Origin: Entophlyctis helioformis
Taxonomy: Eukaryota > Chytridiomycota > Chytridiomycetes > Chytridiales > Chytriomycetaceae
Direction of reading: 5' to 3'
Assembly (NCBI GenBank): GCA_025526915.1
Contig: JAHLKH010000141.1
Location: 1 to 64,000, forward strand
Length of the DNA stretch: 64,000 nt
Numbering within the stretch: position 1 is the stretch's first letter; the number at the start of each line of letters is the position of its first letter. Positions 35,847 to 63,240 of this stretch are shown piece by piece. The position numbers and the translations under genes were made by a program. Below the pieces are notes generated by a model, which had not been told where the DNA came from, ran no database searches, and saw only the letters and a program-made list of their open reading frames with translations.

Positions 35847-36046
35847 CGTTTTGGTGATTGTTGCGGCAAGATGGCGCGGCGTTGATCCGCCAGCAGCCAC
35901 GGCACGGCAAGGACGGCTGGCTGGAGAGTGCCAGAGGACGGCAGACGCAGCGACAGGCAGCCACAGTGGCAAAAGAGAGAGAGAGTGGCCAAGGATCGAT
36001 GTCCAGCAGTCGAGCAAAATGGCGAGATGGGACAAAAGAGAAGCCA

Positions 36047-36118
36047 GCCCGACGTGGGGGTCGAACCCACAACCTTAAGATTAAGAGTCTTACGCTCTAC
36101 CGATTGAGCTAGCCGGGC
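36047..36118 (-). tRNA. tRNA-Lys (CTT)
   Basis: 72-nt cloverleaf on the minus strand. Acceptor stem GCCCGGC pairs with GTCGGGC (one G-U). D-arm GCTCAATCGGTAGAGC, anticodon loop CTCTTAA with anticodon CTT, T-arm GTGGGTTCGACCCCCAC. No intron and no encoded CCA. The base after the acceptor stem reads T on the tRNA strand. B-box GGTTCGACCCC is intact. It lies upstream of SEY1 on the same strand. Confidence 0.93.
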
Positions 36119-37080
36119 TTGTTCCTTCTTGTCACGTGATCTGCCCACCCACACTCGATCCCTGCCACTCTGTGCACCACAGCCACCGCGAAACCAGCAA
36201 AGCGACCGTGTCCTGCCACTCTTGTGCCATCCACTGGCCTGCGTTGGATGCTGCCAAGTCGCACAGCACAGCCGTCATCGTCAGCTCCTTGTGCAGTCGC
36301 TCAGTGGCACTCCTGAGCTGGCTGGTGGCAGACATTCAAACAGCCAGCCAGATTCATCCCCTTGATCGTCCTCGTCTGTTCATGCCTGGCCATGCAAGGA
36401 GGCATTGGCGCTGTGCTTGCCACTGGGCTGGCCACTCGACTCGTTGTCGGCAAGAAGCAGCGCGCAGTGCAGCTGTGATCCACAGAGACCAGTGGCGCGG
36501 CAATGGCGAGCAAAGGCTTGCGTGTCGATCAGCCGAGATGGTCGTGCTTGACAGCAACCCAGAGTCGTCAAGCCAGCCGATCTTGCAGTCATTGGTCCAG
36601 CTGGCCCAGCCGCACTTGTGCACTGTTGGCTGTTGCCTCACGTTGCTCGCTGCTGCGTCCCAAGCCGAGTGAGTGGACGAGCAGCCTTGACCGCCACGAT
36701 GCAGCGCTCTTTGTGTGTGTGGAGCCACCGACTCGTGCGGAATGGCAGCGCATACGCTGAGATCGCAGTGTTGCTTGCGGCTGTCTCGAGTGCCGCTGGT
36801 TGCTCAAGCAAGAGCCGCACGGCGATGCTGCCCGGTTGGTGCGTCCATCGACGTGGACGCAGCCACTCTCTTGCTCGTCTGGCTGTCTGTCTGTCTGTCT
36901 GCTGCTAGAGTATCGGATGCCGTGGCTGCGCTTGGTCAGTGGAGCAGCAACGACAGAGCAGCATCGCATGAGCCAGGCTCGTTGAATGGACACTGCCAGC
37001 CTGATCTGGACACTGGCTGCCCGTGCTGCTGCACAGCAAGCAAGCGAGCGAGCAGACCAACAACGCCACGAGTGCAGCAG
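36119..37080. other. Gene-poor spacer, no supported gene
   Basis: About 960 bp between tRNA-Lys and the ankyrin gene. Several frames are open on both strands but none shows a domain, consistent codon pattern or splice continuity. A CACGTG E-box-like site is at about 36133-36138 and a CTGT tetranucleotide run at about 36880-36901. It may include untranslated exons of the ankyrin gene. Confidence 0.5.
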
Positions 37081-39760: not shown

Positions 39761-39898
39761 AGGTCGGTGCCTGACCGGCGGATGGGCGACGTGATGGCAG
39801 ACGAGCGGGCGCTGAGGTTCATGACTTGGCGTTGACGGTGACAGACTTGCAAGTCCTCGGGTGATAAACGTGCCAAAAAAATCAAAAATGTAACCAAT

Positions 39899-39969
39899 GG
39901 AGCAGTAGGGGATTGAACCCTAGGCCTTCCGCATGCGAAGCGGACGCTCTACCACTGAGCTACAACCCC
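39899..39969 (-). tRNA. tRNA-Ala (CGC)
   Basis: 71-nt cloverleaf on the minus strand. The acceptor GGGGTTG pairs with CTGCTCC and contains the G3:U70 wobble that identifies alanine tRNAs. D-arm AGCTCAGTGGTAGAGC, anticodon loop TTCGCAT (anticodon CGC), T-arm TAGGGTTCAATCCCCTA. The discriminator base is A. One T-T mismatch is present at position 6 of the acceptor stem. No intron. Reverse transcriptase fragments lie on both sides. Confidence 0.88.
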
Positions 39970-40019
39970 ACCAGTTGAAAGAATTTTCAGCAAATTACAA
40001 TAAATACATTAATTCTTCA

Positions 40020-55455: not shown

Positions 55456-55503
55456 GTTGGATGATACAACGCAAACCAGGGGCCCGGTTCTCATACCATT
55501 ACC

Positions 55504-55588
55504 CCTGGTGGAATATTCCTGATTGGTCAATCCTGGTGGAATATTCCTGATTGGTCAACTCCTGGTGGAATCGCTGTGATTGGTTGAT
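55504..55588. promoter_or_regulatory. Triplicated 28-bp repeat with CCAAT boxes
   Basis: Three tandem units beginning CCTGGTGGAAT start at 55504, 55532 and 55561. Each contains GATTGG, i.e. CCAATC on the minus strand. The first two are nearly identical, the third diverges. On the KGD4 strand this gives three phased CCAAT boxes 50-140 bp upstream of its ATG. In yeast, HAP2/3/4/5 acts through CCAAT boxes on 2-oxoglutarate dehydrogenase genes; HAP control here is an inference. Confidence 0.7.
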
Positions 55589-55885
55589 CTAGAGAGCCCT
55601 TGAGAAGTGCTGACACTGCGTGATGCGAGCACAGCAACGACAGTGGTGCAGGCAGCAGCGCCTGCTGTCTCGCTGGGCCGTGCGTGTGTGTCCTCCATGA
55701 ATAAAGAGGGGCGAATGCATAGTCATGTGCAACGCTCTCTCTCTCTCTCTGAGGAGCATGCCATTCCACACACACAGACCAGTGCTCCATGTGTTGCTGC
55801 CAACCATCAGTCTGATATTACGAGAGCAGCTTGCCCATAAAACGACCGACACAAAACAACACGCAACAACACACAACAAACACAC

Positions 55886-58800
55886 ATGGGAGTTGACGGC
55901 AGTCTCCCCACCATCGACAAGAGAGGTGGTGTCAAGACATACAAAGCAGACACCCCTCTGCCCACTGCCATTCAGGCCATTGCCCAGCAGCAGCCAGATG
56001 CAGCAGCAGCAGCAGCAGCAGCAGCCGACTCCGAGCCCATCAGCTGCATCATCCATGTCGACATCCTTTGCCTGCTCTTCATTGACATTATGAGAGCAGC
56101 AGCCGCAAAGCCGCCCCAGTCTGACAACGACTGGAGGCTGCTACTCGAGCCGCTCATCAGCAGCCTCGCCGCAGCCATTGGACAGCTGCATACAGTCCAG
56201 CTGCATGTGATGGGTCGCAGCTCGACACCGCATCAAGGCTGCTTATGCCGGGCGGGCCTGGGCAGCATTGGAGGTGGCATCCTTTCTCATGGCCGAGGCA
56301 GCCAAGCAAAATGCCGGCCAGAAGAGCGGCAAGCTCTCGAGGTGTGCCACTTGCTGCTGTTGATCTGCATGCTGTACTGACTCAATGCCATTCCAGAAAC
56401 GAGATGCAGCGCCTGCAGAAGGCATACCCCCTCACACGCGAGCGCAAGGCAGCCATCTCGAGGGCCCTGGGCAGTCTTCTCAGATACTTCAAAGGCGGGT
56501 CGTCTGTGTGCCTTTGCGAGAATGAGCGGATGTTTGCATTGCACGCCATTCCCGCGAAGCAAGGTTGGTCAGCCTTCTGCATGCTTCTAGAATCCATGGC
56601 TCACGCGCCTTCTTGACAGCAATGTGCCAGTCATTGTCATCAGTGGCGACTCCGATCTGGTGTTCCACTGTGCCGGCTATTGCCCTGTCCTGCTGCTGCA
56701 ACTGTGCAGTGGGCAGATCAATAGAATGCGATCCTACAATCACCATGGGATTGCCTCCATTGCAGCCGCCTTAGGCTTGCCAGACATTCCCTTTGTCTGC
56801 CAGTTGGTGGCCGCAATGGCGAGCAACAACTATTTCCATTGTGTTGGGATTGGTAGGTTGGCTTGCCTGCTTTGCATTTTTGGATGTCATGCACTGCGAC
56901 CTTGACTTACTCGTGATGCTGCGATGTGGACTTGAAAGGGATCGTCACGGCTGCAAAGTGCATCATGGCATGCATTCGTTTGGAGGCAGAGCAGCTGGGT
57001 ATCTCTGTCGCGGATGTCTGTGAATGCCTCCAAGACCCCAACATTGCCAGAATGTTTGTGCATGTCATCAAGATTGCGTTCATGTGGCAGATGTACAAGA
57101 TCGGCAGCAAGCCTCTTGCTCAGTCATTCAGCAATGCCTTCGCGGTGTTTCTCAACCGTGACAAGAGAGGAGCCGATATTGGAGAGATCACAGCCCCAGC
57201 ATGTGGCCATTATGCCAGTGTGTTTGCAGGACAGATGCGGCAGTAAGTCTTGGTTTGGATGCACTTGGACAGCATGGCATTGACATGAATGCATGCACCA
57301 TCCAATGGCAACAGCAGGACTGCCAACAGGACCATCTCGCCCCAAAACAGGTAGGCACGGCTGCGATCTCTGCAGGATTCTTGTGGCACTGACTCTGATG
57401 GATGCCACTGGCAGATCTGCCTCTGCATGCACGGCCTACAGCGACTGCTGCTTGAGCCACACGGCACAGCAGCTAAAGGGCAATGCCAGTCGTGCAGTTT
57501 GGCACCTTACATGGGATGAAGTCATGGTGCTCGCCAAGCACATTGTCAACACAAGGCGACTGGACGACGTTTTTGTCATGCTCAATGGCTGCCGTGTCGT
57601 GTTTAGCTGCGTTCTCCATGCACGGCAGACTCCTCGCCGATGACATTCTCAACGGCCGTGACATCCTTGCTGATATCTGCGAGAATGCAAGCAAGCAGCT
57701 GCTCCAGGCTGTGCACGAGAAGGATCTCGCTACAAAAGGATATGAGATACTCAGCCCAGCTGAGCAGAGCCTGTTACACGCCTTTGTGAGTTTTGGGTGG
57801 CTTGGATGCGTGTCTTGACTGTCCACTGCATGCTGTTGCTGATTTTGAGCATGGCTGACTTGATCCATCACTGGGCGAGCAGATGGTGATCCTGAGACTG
57901 CAGGAACGGCTCAAGAGGTATCCAGGCATTGCATGTGCACCATTCAGGCGTTCAAGGAAGCCAGGTTCGCTCTGCATTTGTTTGGCACAGTGCGACCTTG
58001 TGTATTCACAATCAATCACGGCATTCTTCTGGCAGGCAACCGCAAGGCTAAACAGCACCGCAGAAAGAGCACACGGATCGCGACTCGAAAGGCTGTCGCT
58101 GCCATTCGCAAACAGGCCGTAGATACGCTGAATCTCTTGGAATGCCAAAAGAAACACAGCCCGGACGACTTCAAGCCGCTGGCACTTTCTGAGCAGTATC
58201 AACAAGCCACAGACACACTGACACTGATCATTGACAGGGCTCCAGTGCGTCTTTGCATTTCTATGCTCTGTTTGCATGTGGCGGCTTGATGCACCTGCTC
58301 ATGCTTTGACTTGACAGGTCGGCAAGCCACCAAAAGGCCACAGATGCTGCTGCCATCTCCAGCCGCAGCTGATGGCACAGATCGCGACAAGATCCTCTAC
58401 ATTGATGTGCTTCAAGACACAAAGACAACCGTGAGTTGAACTGCAGGCTTGTGATTGTGAGCATCTTGTGCACATTCAGAATGCACGCCTAAGATTGCAT
58501 CCAAACACGGCAGGAGCCATACCTTGTCACACTGGCCAGACAGGCTGTATTCAAGAAGGAGCGAGAAGAGCGTGCAGAGAAGGCCAAGGCAGATGAGATC
58601 ATCAAGGAGCTCAAGAAGGATGCAAGCAAGCAAGCCCGCCAGGCTCAATCTGAGGACGAGACACAGGCGTAAGTGGCATATGGCATGTCGCGTGCCTTGA
58701 TTGTGCTTGCTGACATGCATTCTGCTGGCAGATACCATTTCATGCAAGACGCACCTTGCACAATGAGCTTGTCCGGATGGGCGACTACAAACAAGGGGCC

Positions 58801-61800
58801 TGCCAGACTCTTCCTGCAGCCGCCAATTTCAAAGCACCAACAGAGGAGGGCACGGAGAAAGACAAGGAGAAGGAGGAGGACGAGCGCGAGCAGGAGGCAC
58901 AGCAGCATCCCAAAGCACCAAAGGCTCAGACAAACACGCAGCAACATCGCCCCAATATGATCGTGGATCTGAAGGTATGGGGGTTGATCGCCATGCTGCT
59001 CTGCATGCTCGGCTTTTTGCATGCTGACAGGTGTGCAGGAGATGGTTTCAGACAATCCAGCAAGCGCAAAGTTGTTGGGCCCTCCAGCCAAACCACCATC
59101 AGCAGAGCAAACCATCGCCATGGTTGTCCTAGCCTGCATTTCCAAGGTTTACACGTTCATCGTCGGCGCTCGGCATGTCGGGATTGTGATGCTTGGCGCT
59201 GTTCTCGAAGTACTGCTCAAGCTCGAGTCAGATGAGCCACTGCCACTCGATTATCGCGTTTTCAAGTGGACCCGCGATGGAAAGACCAACTACTGCTTTC
59301 TTGATCGCGAGAAACTTGACCGCAAGACGGAGGCTGCGCTCTTGGCAGGATACTGTGTGCTGGAAAAGGACACCATGGTCCGGTTTATGTACGGCGTTGG
59401 TCCACATGGTCGCAAGGGCAAAATCCCTTTCTATGGGGATTCTGTGATCCTCTCAAAGGACACAGTGCTTGAGCTCTGCTCGCTCGGACACGTCAAGAAG
59501 CCCAAGCAGCCCAATGGCCCCAATGACCCTGACGGTCCTGACAGCCATGAGGACGATCGCGACCACGAGGATGATGATGATCATGATGACCACGAGGACG
59601 ATGACGATCATGAGGATCACGAGGACGACGAGCAGCATGATGACCATGAGGATGACGAGCAGCATGAGCAGCACGAGCAGCAAGCAGAAGCAGAAGCAGC
59701 AGCAGTCATTCCAACTGCCAATCAACTCCTCACAGCACTGACCAGCAGCAGATCCGGTGGCGAGACGTCTGTGGCATGTCTCCTACGCCACATTGTCACG
59801 ATTGTTGGCAATGGTCGCATGGCAAAGCCGCGATCAAACATGGACACCACCAACGCATGGTTGGTCACCGTCATGCAACTGATTGTTCACCGTAACTGGA
59901 CGCGGCGCATGGTGCACGCCAATGCAGGCAAGGTGCGTGCAGACATGGCTGATGCTGACATGATGGGCATGGATATGATGGATGCTGACAAGATGGACGC
60001 GATCCAGACAAGCGCGATCCAGACAGATTTGGACAAGGCAGTCCTGCCATGCAAGCTGGCTGTTGGTCTGTGTGGGAAAGCGGCCAATGACATCTACAGC
60101 TACTTGGCCCGAGATATCTGCACCATGCTGGCAGTGCATGTCATCTCGAACCAGTCGATGCTCGTGCTTGCTGCTGCCCACCAGCTGATGCCCGGCGCAT
60201 CAAAGGAGGAGGTCGTGGCATCAGTCGCGGCCATGACCAAAGCCATTGAGGATGCCACGCCACTGGCCGCCGAGGATGCCACACCACAGGTCGCTGAGGA
60301 CGCCATGCCACTGGCCGCAAGGATGCCCCATCGCTGGCCGATCTTGACGCTGCACCACAAGCCACTCTGGATGCTGCACCTCCTGCGGCAGGTCGCAAGA
60401 GGGCCCTGTCTAGCTCTTCGTCGCCCACCGATTGCACCGCGACCAAGAAGCCATGTGGCGAGAGGGACGAGGCCACCACAGACGCGGCATCCAGCACACC
60501 TTCAGACACGGAGGGCATAGCCATTTCTGGGATCCCCCAACAGCTGGTTAGGCTTGCGGCGATCTTGCTCAACAAGTCGCTGTCGGAAATAGGCAAGTTC
60601 TACCGGCTGCGCAAGCTGGCCGGCGAAACAGTGATCAAGTTATGCCCTGAGGCGGCGAATCGGGACCCGTTTGTTCATATCACCGAGACCATTCTGTTTT
60701 GGTCGGTGATAGGGAACCCAAAGGATCGCAAGCCAACCAAGAACAACGCGGCATTGCAGGCTTTGCAAAAGCGTCTCTTGGCTGCGATCAGCAGTAGGTC
60801 GCACTTGGTTATGCCATGCTTACATGATTTGATACTTACAAACCACTCTTCTCAAAGAGCCTGGCTCGCAAGCCTTGACTCTTGCGTCATCCAACAAGGA
60901 CATACAAGCCGCTTTCAGCTCAAGCCGCGAGGATTGCGTTCTCGACATTCTCCTCCCCGGACTCGCCTCGGATACACGACGCTTCCAGACGCCTGCGAGG
61001 CAAAGGTCCAGATGGACGCGGCTGCCAAGGCCAGAGCAGACGCCATTGCCGATGCGACTCTTGAGGCCAAGAGACTCCTTCTGGTTGGCAAGGTGCGCGA
61101 GGATTACATCCAGGCTGCGATCAAAGCCCTGCCCCCAGCGCGACCAACCAAGGCCGTCAGACTAGGCAGCATCAAGACCGATGGATACAGCGTCTCTCAG
61201 CTGACTCTGGACTTTCGCACAGACCGTCCAGAGTCGCCTCGCAGTATGTGGCGCACTTGAATGCGATGGTGCACACATTGGTTCTGACATCCGCCTTGAT
61301 CTGCAGGTCCCAACGCGGCGTCTTCAGCCCAGCAACTCAGTCTTGCTGGTGATGCTCATGATCACATGGACGTCACATGTGAGTTGCTGTACCAATCCAG
61401 ACGCGCACTTGTTGACCACACCGACTGACATGCCATCCACGGCCACCGATCCAGCCGACCCATCAGCCGCCAAGCCAAAAGCACCCAATCCTGTAAGCCA
61501 CTTGCATGCCAACCTCGCGCATTGGTGCACATGCACTGCACATTCCTCACTCATGTCATGGCACGACAGGCCCAGCGCAACTTTTACGCCTCACAGCGAC
61601 TGCATGACATCATCAAAGCCAACAACCTGTTCACCAACAAGGGCTACCAGACTGTTCGTGTTGTCAGCTTTGATTGGGGCAAGCGGTACCTGTATGGCGC
61701 GTCCAGCATCTTGGTCGACCTCAGAGACTTTTCGTATACGCTCGAGTCCAACTACGTGCTCTCCTCTGGCATGGCACATGCTGAGGGCATCTTTCAGCGG

Positions 61801-63030
61801 TGGTATGCATGCAATGACTCTGCCACGCGCACTCTTGACCAGATCAACTCACAGTGCCCGTCTCTTGCGCCAGGTTTGATGACCGACTTGCCAAGGCTGC
61901 TGACATCCAGGCGGCCATTGCATTCAAGACAGCAAAGCATGCCGATCCAAACGTCAAGCCTGGCGAGAGAGCCTTTTGGGATCTGCGCTGCCATGCGTAC
62001 TGCACGCCATTCCTGAATGCACGGGTACGGTTTCTCTGTTTCTGGATGTCCATTGCCATGACCGCCATACTGCTTGATCGCCTGCTGATTGCACTGGATG
62101 GCATGGCGTGGCATGGCATTCAACAGAAGGTCAAGGCCAAGCGGTTCACCATGCGCAGCAGCCGCACGTCTGATCGCGGAAACGCTCTTGAGGGCATCAT
62201 GAAGCTGGCAGGATCGACCACTGGAAAGCGCGCATCTGCTGCATCTCAAGGCCTCCCTGTCGACCGAACAAAGTCGACAGAGGACAACATTCCCGTTGTC
62301 TGGGCATTTGGCATCGACTTTACAGGCCAAGGTGGCCGGCACGCTGTGTTTGAGAGGTTTCTCATCAGGCATCTGCGGTCATCTGGATATGCCTATGTGC
62401 GTCTGATGCCATCCATCCATCCATCTGCGCACCAACTGACACGATCATGCCCACACACACACACAGATCTACCGCTGCAACGAGAACCTGACCAGCCAGA
62501 TGTGCCCGCAGTGCAAGCAGCGGATCCCATACGAGAACCGCACCAACCTGCGACGCTACGAGTGCATACCATGCAAGACTGTCTACCACCGCGATGTGCT
62601 TGGAGCCACAAACATCGGGATGGTCGCGCTGTGGCATCTGCTCTTTGGACACCGGCCGCTCTACTTGACACACACCAAAGCCGACAGCAATCCAGCCACG
62701 CCAGAGCACCTCAAACGCATCGCAAGAATGCATACTGCCATCAAGCTGCGTGCACGAGATGCTCCGCCTGTTGTCCCACAGCCTCAAACGCGGAAACACT
62801 TCAAGTCGCATGTGGCCTCATGGGACCAGATCAGCCTGCCGTCCTGTGGTATTCAAGACGTGCTGTACAGCAGCGTTCAAGACACGGTCCATCCGTCATC
62901 CAGCAGCGACCAGCACGCAGACAGCCTGCCCTCAAGTCACTTGACCTGCATCCCACACAGTGACTTGTTTGACTACCAACTCTTTGAATCGGGGGACCTC
63001 CCGATCGACCTAACGGGTCACTTTTTCTAA
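55886..63030 (+). CDS. Composite XPG/FEN1-like and Fanzor (TnpB-like) nuclease gene, frame-broken
   Basis: Starts at ATG 55886 (MGVDGSLPTIDKRG), the XPG-N position. The XPG-I-like region has VPVIVISGDSDLVFHCAG (Asp codons 56648 and 56654), then IPFVCQLVAAMASNNYFHCVGIG and a helix-hairpin-helix. A long middle follows: basic helices (about 57950-58240, 58514-58668), a conserved-looking block MYGVGPHGRKGKIPFYGD (about 59390), an Asp/His/Glu-rich run (59520-59690), and more helices to 61240. The C-terminal Fanzor/TnpB domain has RuvC-I VVSFDWGKRYLYGAS (Asp 61672), CNENLTSQMCPQC ... CIPC zinc ribbon (62503-62574), and RuvC-III YHRDVLGATNIG (Asp 62593). Stop TAA 63028-63030. Introns with matching phase include 56342-56396, 56853-56938, 57786-57882, 58431-58513, 58975-59038, 60794-60857, 61244-61306, 62025-62126 and 62397-62466. 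Frame breaks occur near 56215, 56525, 57570, 57930, 60318, 60990, 61430 and 61870, and one further phase mismatch remains at the junction 58669-58731. One fused gene, two adjacent genes, or a decaying copy are all possible. Confidence 0.7.
56640..56960 (+). other. XPG-I / helix-hairpin-helix domain of the composite gene
   Basis: The GDSD metal-binding motif, a following hydrophobic segment where FEN1 proteins have their 'GCDY' region (here SNNYFHCVGIG), and the hairpin GIGIVTAAKCI created by intron 56853-56938. The order matches Rad2/FEN1-family flap endonucleases. The upstream EAD acid pair is present only in a shifted frame at about 56525. Confidence 0.65.
59520..59700 (+). repeat. Asp/His/Glu-rich simple repeat in coding sequence
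   Basis: GAC/GAT/CAT/GAG triplet-like repeat encoding HEDD/DDHEDDDD/EQHEQ runs, followed by Gln/Ala. It remains in frame. It separates the XPG-like half from the RuvC half of the composite nuclease gene and looks like a flexible linker. Confidence 0.8.
60244..60330 (+). repeat. Eight-codon tandem repeat (EDATPLAA-like)
   Basis: Three to four tandem copies of a 24-bp unit (GAGGATGCCACGCCACTGGC and variants). In the last copy one base is missing compared with the unit, which produces the frame break at about 60318. Confidence 0.75.
61570..62760 (+). other. Fanzor/TnpB RuvC plus zinc-ribbon domain
   Basis: RuvC-I Asp in SFDWGKRY (61672-61674). The Glu in CNENLTSQMC (about 62480) sits where Fanzor proteins have their 'DExxTSxxC' glutamate just before the zinc ribbon. 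Two CxxC knuckles start at 62503 and 62563. RuvC-III Asp is in HRDVLGATNI (62593-62595). All expected catalytic and zinc residues are present across introns 62025-62126 and 62397-62466, so this C-terminal half may still encode a working fold apart from the break at about 61870. Confidence 0.8.
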
Positions 63031-63240
63031 CGATAAAGGTGAGCACTTCGTCGGATGTGCCTCGCCCACTTGTCGTCGCATGCTCGTTGCTGACTCGAAC
63101 CTTCAATCACGTGATATGTGGGCTTGCATCCGTCGCCTCTCTGGTCGAATTTAACTCCAAAATCCTTGGTAATTGTATGAATATCGGGCCCAAGAATCGT
63201 CAGAATTGCTCACAAGGTTTATTAAGGCCACTACGTCGGA

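Follow-up and report, generated by a model that had tools for sequence, protein, structure and literature searches.

A candidate fusion of an XPG/FEN-like nuclease with a divergent Fanzor in a dispersed transposon of Entophlyctis helioformis

The first 64,000 nucleotides of contig JAHLKH010000141.1 of the chytrid Entophlyctis helioformis (assembly GCA_025526915.1), hereafter the window, carry on their plus strand coding sequence resembling a flap nuclease of the XPG/FEN1 type, followed by coding sequence resembling Fanzor, the RNA-guided nuclease of eukaryotes. Do the two belong together, and do they form a single protein? An earlier note, made from the letters alone, had proposed such a fusion. 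Both halves, their order, their strand and their coordinates were borne out, with an XPG-like part at 55886–57242 and a zinc ribbon (PF07282) at 62461–62616; the note had missed that the locus belongs to a multicopy transposon with terminal inverted repeats (TIRs), that the window's copy is decayed, and that its RuvC-I motif is DWG. From sequence comparisons we consider it probable that this decayed copy belongs to a transposon whose gene specifies one long protein, in which a flexible linker connects an XPG/FEN nuclease with a divergent Fanzor.

Two nuclease-like halves in one mobile element

The locus is one copy (55481–63190, plus strand) of a dispersed, high-copy, TIR-bounded DNA transposon. 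The genome searched comprises 29.57 Mb in 482 contigs, with the window on contig C141, and holds more than 100 whole or partial copies. The window's whole copy measures 7.71 kb, with limits set by homology and by the TIR termini: similarity to most sister copies stops near 55481 and 63190, and C176 stays similar to 63998. The 5’ TIR (55481–55503, plus strand) and the 3’ TIR (63168–63190, minus strand) form an imperfect 23-bp inverted repeat, alike at 19 of 23 positions when counted by eye. Allowing up to two mismatches, the inner 21 bp of the 5’ TIR had 86 matches genome-wide and those of the 3’ TIR 127, and a reversed control gave no match to either. When the best 100 of the 127 3’ TIRs were used for pairing, 45 of the 86 5’ TIRs had a same-strand 3’ TIR within 20 kb, compared with one pair in the wrong order and three on opposite strands. 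The TIR-bounded sizes were ~1 kb, 2.2 kb, 7.2–8.0 kb, 8.8–9.8 kb and 11.6–15.9 kb.

The order of the two halves recurs across the genome. Two queries with the XPG-like half (the best 150 of 267 and the best 150 of 316 candidates) merged into 134 loci, and the zinc-ribbon matches were the best 150 of 205 candidates. Among the matches so listed, 67 of the 134 XPG-like loci had a same-strand zinc-ribbon match within 12.5 kb downstream, at a median distance of 5,569 bp. A same-strand zinc-ribbon match upstream was found for none of the 134, and four neighbouring pairs lay on opposite strands; order and strand were therefore the same in 67 of the 71 neighbouring relations. Either a zinc-ribbon match or a listed 3’ TIR lay downstream of 91 XPG-like loci.

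The N-terminal half is spread over four plus-strand exons. Exon 1 (55886–56341), with the HVD strands bearing acids 1 and 2, and exon 2 (56397–56562), with an E-A-D motif, have limits read by hand; exon 3 (56620–56852) holds the XPG_I-like core from VISGDSDLVFHC to SNNYF, and exon 4 (56939–57242), a helical end resembling a helix-hairpin-helix, has joins that match the annotated protein P0002. The window's own pieces of this half (55886–57242) matched no Pfam family. A profile of the half recovered eight annotated proteins at E ≤ 1 among the best 8,000 candidates scored, all of them hypothetical proteins of E. helioformis and hence of one species only. XPG_I_2 (PF12813) was the top Pfam match in all seven of these relatives that were scanned, at E 1.9e-4 to 0.014 and below the Pfam cut-off each time; it ranked first for the spliced model of copy C138 (7e-4) and third for that of C10 (E 0.27). 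Two further XPG_I_2 matches in the genome, on C1 and C38, lie within long frames. Seven acidic positions, in the pattern D...D...ExD...DxD...D, were invariant among five diverged spliced copies aligned (36–65% identity to the first), and we take them to fall where FEN1 has D34, D86, E158, E160, D179, D181 and D233.

An AlphaFold model of this half, built from seven sequences, has a PIN-like order of strands and helices at a mean pLDDT (predicted local distance difference test) of 42.8, which is low confidence. Searched with this poor model, Foldseek placed T5 flap endonuclease, Rat1, plastid exonuclease 1 and XRN1/XRN2 in 10 of the 11 top positions; the best was T5 flap endonuclease at E 0.011, all matches had E above 0.01, rank five was a NEDD8-activating enzyme, and many unrelated proteins stood lower down. 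Sequence-profile searches of the PDB returned nothing relevant, and the 26 pattern matches in viral contigs included no relative. Taken together, the Pfam, acid-pattern and Foldseek results suggest, short of proof, that the N-terminal half is an XPG/FEN-like nuclease.

The C-terminal half opens with REC-like N-terminal Fanzor exons (59039–61492, plus strand) that include an acidic low-complexity stretch; their Pfam matches were all below cut-off and lay mainly over that stretch. The RuvC exons (61570–62396, plus strand), assigned by motif reading and gene model, carry RuvC-I as FDWGKRY and then GIDFTG. The TNB zinc ribbon with an alternative glutamate (ENLTSQMCPQC...CIPC...HRD; 62461–62616, plus strand) matched PF07282 at E 1.8e-9 as protein, and the stop codon lies at 63028–63030 (plus strand). 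The alternative-glutamate Fanzor pattern described in the accessible part of PMC10711439, written here as ExxxxxxCxxCx(12,18)CxxCx(4,8)D, occurred in 23 copies out of 24, with C272, cut by the end of its stretch, as the exception. All eight gene models contained the Fanzor motif D-X(125,275)-[TS][TS]XX-C4 zinc finger-X(5,50)-RD given in the available text of Bao & Jurka 2013 (PMC3627910), with 155–225 residues from D to TS; the spacer from C4 to RD was allowed 3–50 residues, laxer than the published 5–50, and is 5 in the window. According to the same accessible part of PMC10711439, Fanzor RuvC-I is near exclusively DPG. Here it was found in 20 of 24 sequences, as DWG, and not found by pattern in C25, C199, C40 and C35. 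Because of this DWG, we file the C-terminal half as a divergent Fanzor1, not a typical Fanzor; judged by its motifs, it would work as a Fanzor does while failing one signature.

Between the halves, several linker exons (57315–58974, plus strand) include a charged exon of 155 bp at 58514–58668. Spliced open-reading-frame models of eight copies, the window among them, each gave a single exon chain with no forced frameshift, predicting 1,463–1,819 amino acids up to the zinc ribbon (1,555 in C10, 1,742 in C22 and 1,819 in C138). All eight models agree on the length of this linker exon, exactly 155 bp, and on its end in phase 2; they also agree on the exon after it, which ends in phase 0 and is joined to the EM (or KM) exon of the Fanzor half. 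Model scores in three copies were 156–208, versus -2 to -76 for reverse-complement, reversed and block-shuffled controls; the codon table came from parts of these elements themselves, but the linker exons before 58.99 kb were kept out of its training. The models of C5a, C176 and C22 contain doubtful introns. The splices of the XPG part agree with the annotated P0001 and P0002, and P0001 (520 amino acids) continues beyond the XPG part into the linker. Across six pairs of copies, the ratio of non-synonymous to synonymous divergence (dN/dS) was 0.13–0.54 in the XPG part (one value saturated), 0.22–0.40 in the first linker segment and 0.14–0.68 in REC short of its last part (0.14–0.44 at its start). 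On these models, the element's only recognised gene would encode the long XPG-linker-Fanzor protein.

The copy in the window is decayed. Compared with at least four of six close copies, its exons, with limits set by hand, have lost single bases at about nine positions and gained none; two of the deletions fall in exon 1 and one in exon 2. The seventh acid is N in the window (SNNYF) and D in other copies, and the window's gene model sidesteps the deletions only by skipping coding sequence. The deletions-only pattern could instead reflect sequencing error. C10 and C138 look more intact, with chains free of forced frameshifts and the acids kept.

Ends, copies and movement of the element

Insertion junctions were compared in 24 rows, in which C18 and C272 have a common flank and C35s and C436s are one insertion on two contigs. 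Beside the GGCCCGG...CGGGCC termini, 11 rows representing ten distinct insertions showed 8–11 identical flanking bases, read by eye as an 8-bp target-site duplication (TSD); the C35s/C436s insertion showed seven. The family thus has the TIRs and the TSD of constant length that characterise cut-and-paste DNA transposons, and the window copy itself is without a TSD. The 3’ flank of the window copy is also that of C176 and the 5’ flanks of the two differ, which points to recombination or duplication at the window copy.

Copies vary in their ends and contents. Short subterminal repeats (tcctggtggaatattcctgattggtcaa) adjoin the 5’ TIR in the window (55505–55590, plus strand), and their arrangement differs among copies. 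A second type of 3’ terminus has ~47 extra common bases beyond CGGGC (L001, L004, L005, L006 and L008; shortened in L005). The large size of the C297 (15.9 kb) and C37 (14.8 kb) copies is due to nested Ty3/gypsy-like long-terminal-repeat retroelements, recognised by eye. C25, also bounded by TIRs, is a composite: its 5’ region is repeated, the zinc-ribbon end is all that it has of Fanzor, and a minus-strand frame of 397 amino acids looks HNH-like by eye. Exon 1 of C22 has an insertion of ~230 bp, apparently another small repeat. Downstream of the element, C10, C166, C202 and C215 have ~3–4 kb of flanking host DNA that is 98.8–100% identical, reflecting either recent duplication or uncollapsed haplotypes; this common 3’ flank was considered as an extra element gene and rejected as duplicated host DNA. 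Elsewhere in the window lie a tRNA-Lys (36045–36119) and a tRNA-Ala (39897–39970), both on the minus strand.

Comparison of right ends brought out what appears to be a terminal half-intron (63039–63190, plus strand), consisting of a donor, AAAG/GTGAG, and a branch-like site, TTGCTGAC. In the window the donor lies 8 bases 3’ of the stop codon, and no AG occurs from after the donor to the element end. A donor-like AAGGTRAG occurs in 23 right ends, with the variants GTAGA (C10, C235) and GCAAG (C25), and the branch-like site follows the donor in 22 of the 23. From that site to the element end, the 23 right ends contain AG 4 times versus 138 expected; this ratio of 0.03 is the lowest of any dinucleotide, the next-rarest being TA at 0.57, and at the 5’ ends of 15 copies the AG ratio is 0.99. 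AG-free runs of similar length are present elsewhere in the element, including its 5’ end, and the right ends are not independent tests, because the copies are related (85% mean identity over the 3’ end of the 23). In 21 of 26 insertions, which include the flank-sharing pairs window/C176 and C18/C272, the first AG ends 4–10 bases past CGGG, compared with 6–12 of 26 in equal windows farther out. Since the first AG thus lies mostly just outside the element, target DNA seems to supply the 3’ splice site. The same stretch, 63039–63190, is where the scaffold of a Fanzor guide RNA would be expected. This suggests a scheme, which we hold to be doubtful, in which flap nuclease and RNA-guided nuclease make up one polypeptide, splicing to the target's AG would yield its mRNA, unspliced transcripts with the scaffold and its flank would act as guide RNA, and the target site would set the balance between enzyme and guide.

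Reading of elements by eye, with C297 and C37 as the only copies above 11 kb, revealed no recognisable transposase; on that reading they are not autonomous transposons, which are defined by a transposase of their own. In the part of the window's exons that was scanned, no transposase was matched apart from a sub-cut-off zinc-ribbon match. Among the three transposase families searched for in the genome (KDZ, MULE and hAT), KDZ alone was found, with four matches at three places (C334:6404–7253, C271:9823–10062 and C396:222–449). The MULE search gave no match; the hAT search gave none either, an uninformative result, as no control genome matched. KDZ (Zisupton) elements make 8-bp duplications, as hAT elements usually do, according to the available portion of PMC12730594. 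The KDZ piece on C334 was considered as the element's partner and rejected, as no matching TIR (up to six mismatches) lies in the 6.5 kb around it. Derivatives that keep the TIRs at a size of ~1 kb (one insertion) or 2.2 kb speak for mobilisation in trans. We propose that a transposase acting in trans would perform excision and insertion; the Fanzor half, guided by RNA from the right end plus flank, may then cut the matching empty site, and the XPG half may trim flaps or strands displaced in the R-loop or repair intermediate, after which repair would copy the element into the cut site.

One gene or two, and other explanations

Several results weigh against a joined and working pair of nucleases. 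Among the matches listed, neither a zinc-ribbon match nor a listed 3’ TIR lies downstream of 43 of the 134 XPG-like loci; of the 150 zinc-ribbon matches, 66 have an XPG match upstream and 84 have none. Contigs often break near element copies: of 60 unpaired zinc-ribbon matches checked, half (30) were no more than 6.5 kb from a contig end (lengths interpolated) and the other 30 were farther away, the latter including at least one short deletion derivative. dN/dS reached 0.15–0.90, and once 1.95, in the last two linker segments, 0.43–1.29 in the last part of REC and 0.13–0.94 in RuvC and TNB, from which we conclude that neither the junction nor the Fanzor half is under strong selection. Two protein searches with long queries, covering the 7,999 candidates with the most words in common, found no match. 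To these are added the sub-cut-off matches and poor structural model of the XPG-like half, the RuvC-I motif, and the hAT search. At the ends, 11 of the 24 junction rows, the window copy included, have only 3–5 identical bases, that is, no duplication, and covariation over the 3’ end of 23 copies gave no support for a guide RNA (z 0.3).

The chief alternative is that two adjacent genes are present, the XPG-like gene ending at ~57.35 kb and a separate Fanzor gene beginning within the linker, perhaps at 59.04 kb with the ATG of the conserved EM motif. The annotated P0002 indeed stops directly after XPG exon 4, and near 57.35 kb the window's frame, read by eye, meets a TAG overlapping a donor-like GTAGGC. 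On the XPG side, constraint is also weakest in the linker, and C5b, which is a recombinant between elements as judged from its sequence, mixes an XPG half of one subfamily with a Fanzor half of another, the switch falling across the linker (over the stretch that begins with the last linker exon and closes with the third REC segment, its non-synonymous difference from C22 is only 1–3%). Against two genes, the linker exons up to the donor that precedes 59.04 kb keep frame and phase, one of them at an exact length, in all eight models. The 59.04-kb ATG, moreover, sits immediately 3’ of a splice acceptor, and P0001 extends into the linker. We regard two genes as rather unlikely and favour, from the models, a single fusion gene as the best reading, with the linker as the place where any split would lie. 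The fusion put forward in the earlier note is accordingly the best-supported account (67 of 71 listed relations, linker phase in eight of eight models, P0001) and stays unproven, given the early stop of P0002 and the empty long-query protein searches. The agreement of exon phases claimed there extends to the sister copies, where the phase of the 155-bp exon is constant, and breaks down in the window copy, with its deletions and skipped coding sequence. Its proposed profile searches were clear for the zinc ribbon and, on the XPG side, empty for the window and sub-cut-off for the relatives; its reading of a Fanzor/TnpB RuvC and zinc ribbon held for the motifs, RuvC-I excepted.

A family of dead repeats, with both nucleases inactive and the dN/dS signals as remnants, would account for the decay of the window copy, for the several copies with nested elements or rearrangements, for the doubtful introns that some sister models need and for dN/dS up to 0.94 in RuvC and TNB. 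It fits poorly with the unbroken chains and retained acids of C10 and C138, and the recently diverged pair C102/C138 still has an XPG dN/dS of 0.13–0.29; we think it very unlikely. Least credible of all, and in our view extremely improbable, is a chance juxtaposition or nested insertion that made neighbours of an XPG element and a functionally unrelated Fanzor element. Nested insertions do occur in these elements and many listed zinc-ribbon matches are without an upstream XPG match, but both halves lie inside one TIR pair, and the constancy of order and strand includes XPG copies down to 36–39% identity to the first.

Comparison with known systems

A joining of XPG and Fanzor was not found described in the literature, as judged by titles and openings of abstracts, with subscription papers mostly outside this scope. 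Capture of Fanzor1 by transposons without a transposase of their own is known from the accessible parts of Bao & Jurka 2013 (PMC3627910), Yoon 2023 (PMC10711439) and Saito 2023 (PMC10432273). Measured against those parts, the present element resembles Fanzor1 transposons in its TIRs, its TSDs, its want of a recognised transposase, its C-terminal RuvC, C4 zinc finger and RD, and an alternative glutamate placed six residues ahead of the zinc finger. It differs in having DWG where DPG is near exclusive, in a predicted protein ~2.5–3 times the length of SPu-1-1p (633 amino acids), and in the XPG/FEN-like N-terminal nuclease, of which the available text of the three papers makes no mention. KDZ/Zisupton elements share the 8-bp TSD, and KDZ pieces are present in this genome (PMC12730594, available portion); unlike them, the elements read here show no KDZ transposase, and no matching TIR lies near the C334 piece.

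With the XPG/Rad2/FEN1 superfamily the N-terminal half shares the acid pattern, the PIN-like order in the model, XPG_I_2 as best match in seven of seven relatives, and the leading Foldseek neighbours; it departs from the superfamily in its sub-cut-off Pfam matches, its restriction to one species, its place inside a transposon and its joining to Fanzor. What Fanzor does for its host transposons is still debated. If the fusion is real, a natural joining to a flap or R-loop nuclease, kept over many diverged copies of one genome, would show which processing step a guided cut needs in a eukaryote, and it would provide two nucleases in a single ready-made architecture. With its many copies, deletion derivatives and conserved half-intron, this one fungus lends itself to direct tests of fusion, guide production and mobilisation. 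Introners and IStron-type elements likewise have splice signals at their edges that target DNA completes, and a choice between splicing and guide RNA; in the present element the putative donor points outward and the AG lies outside.

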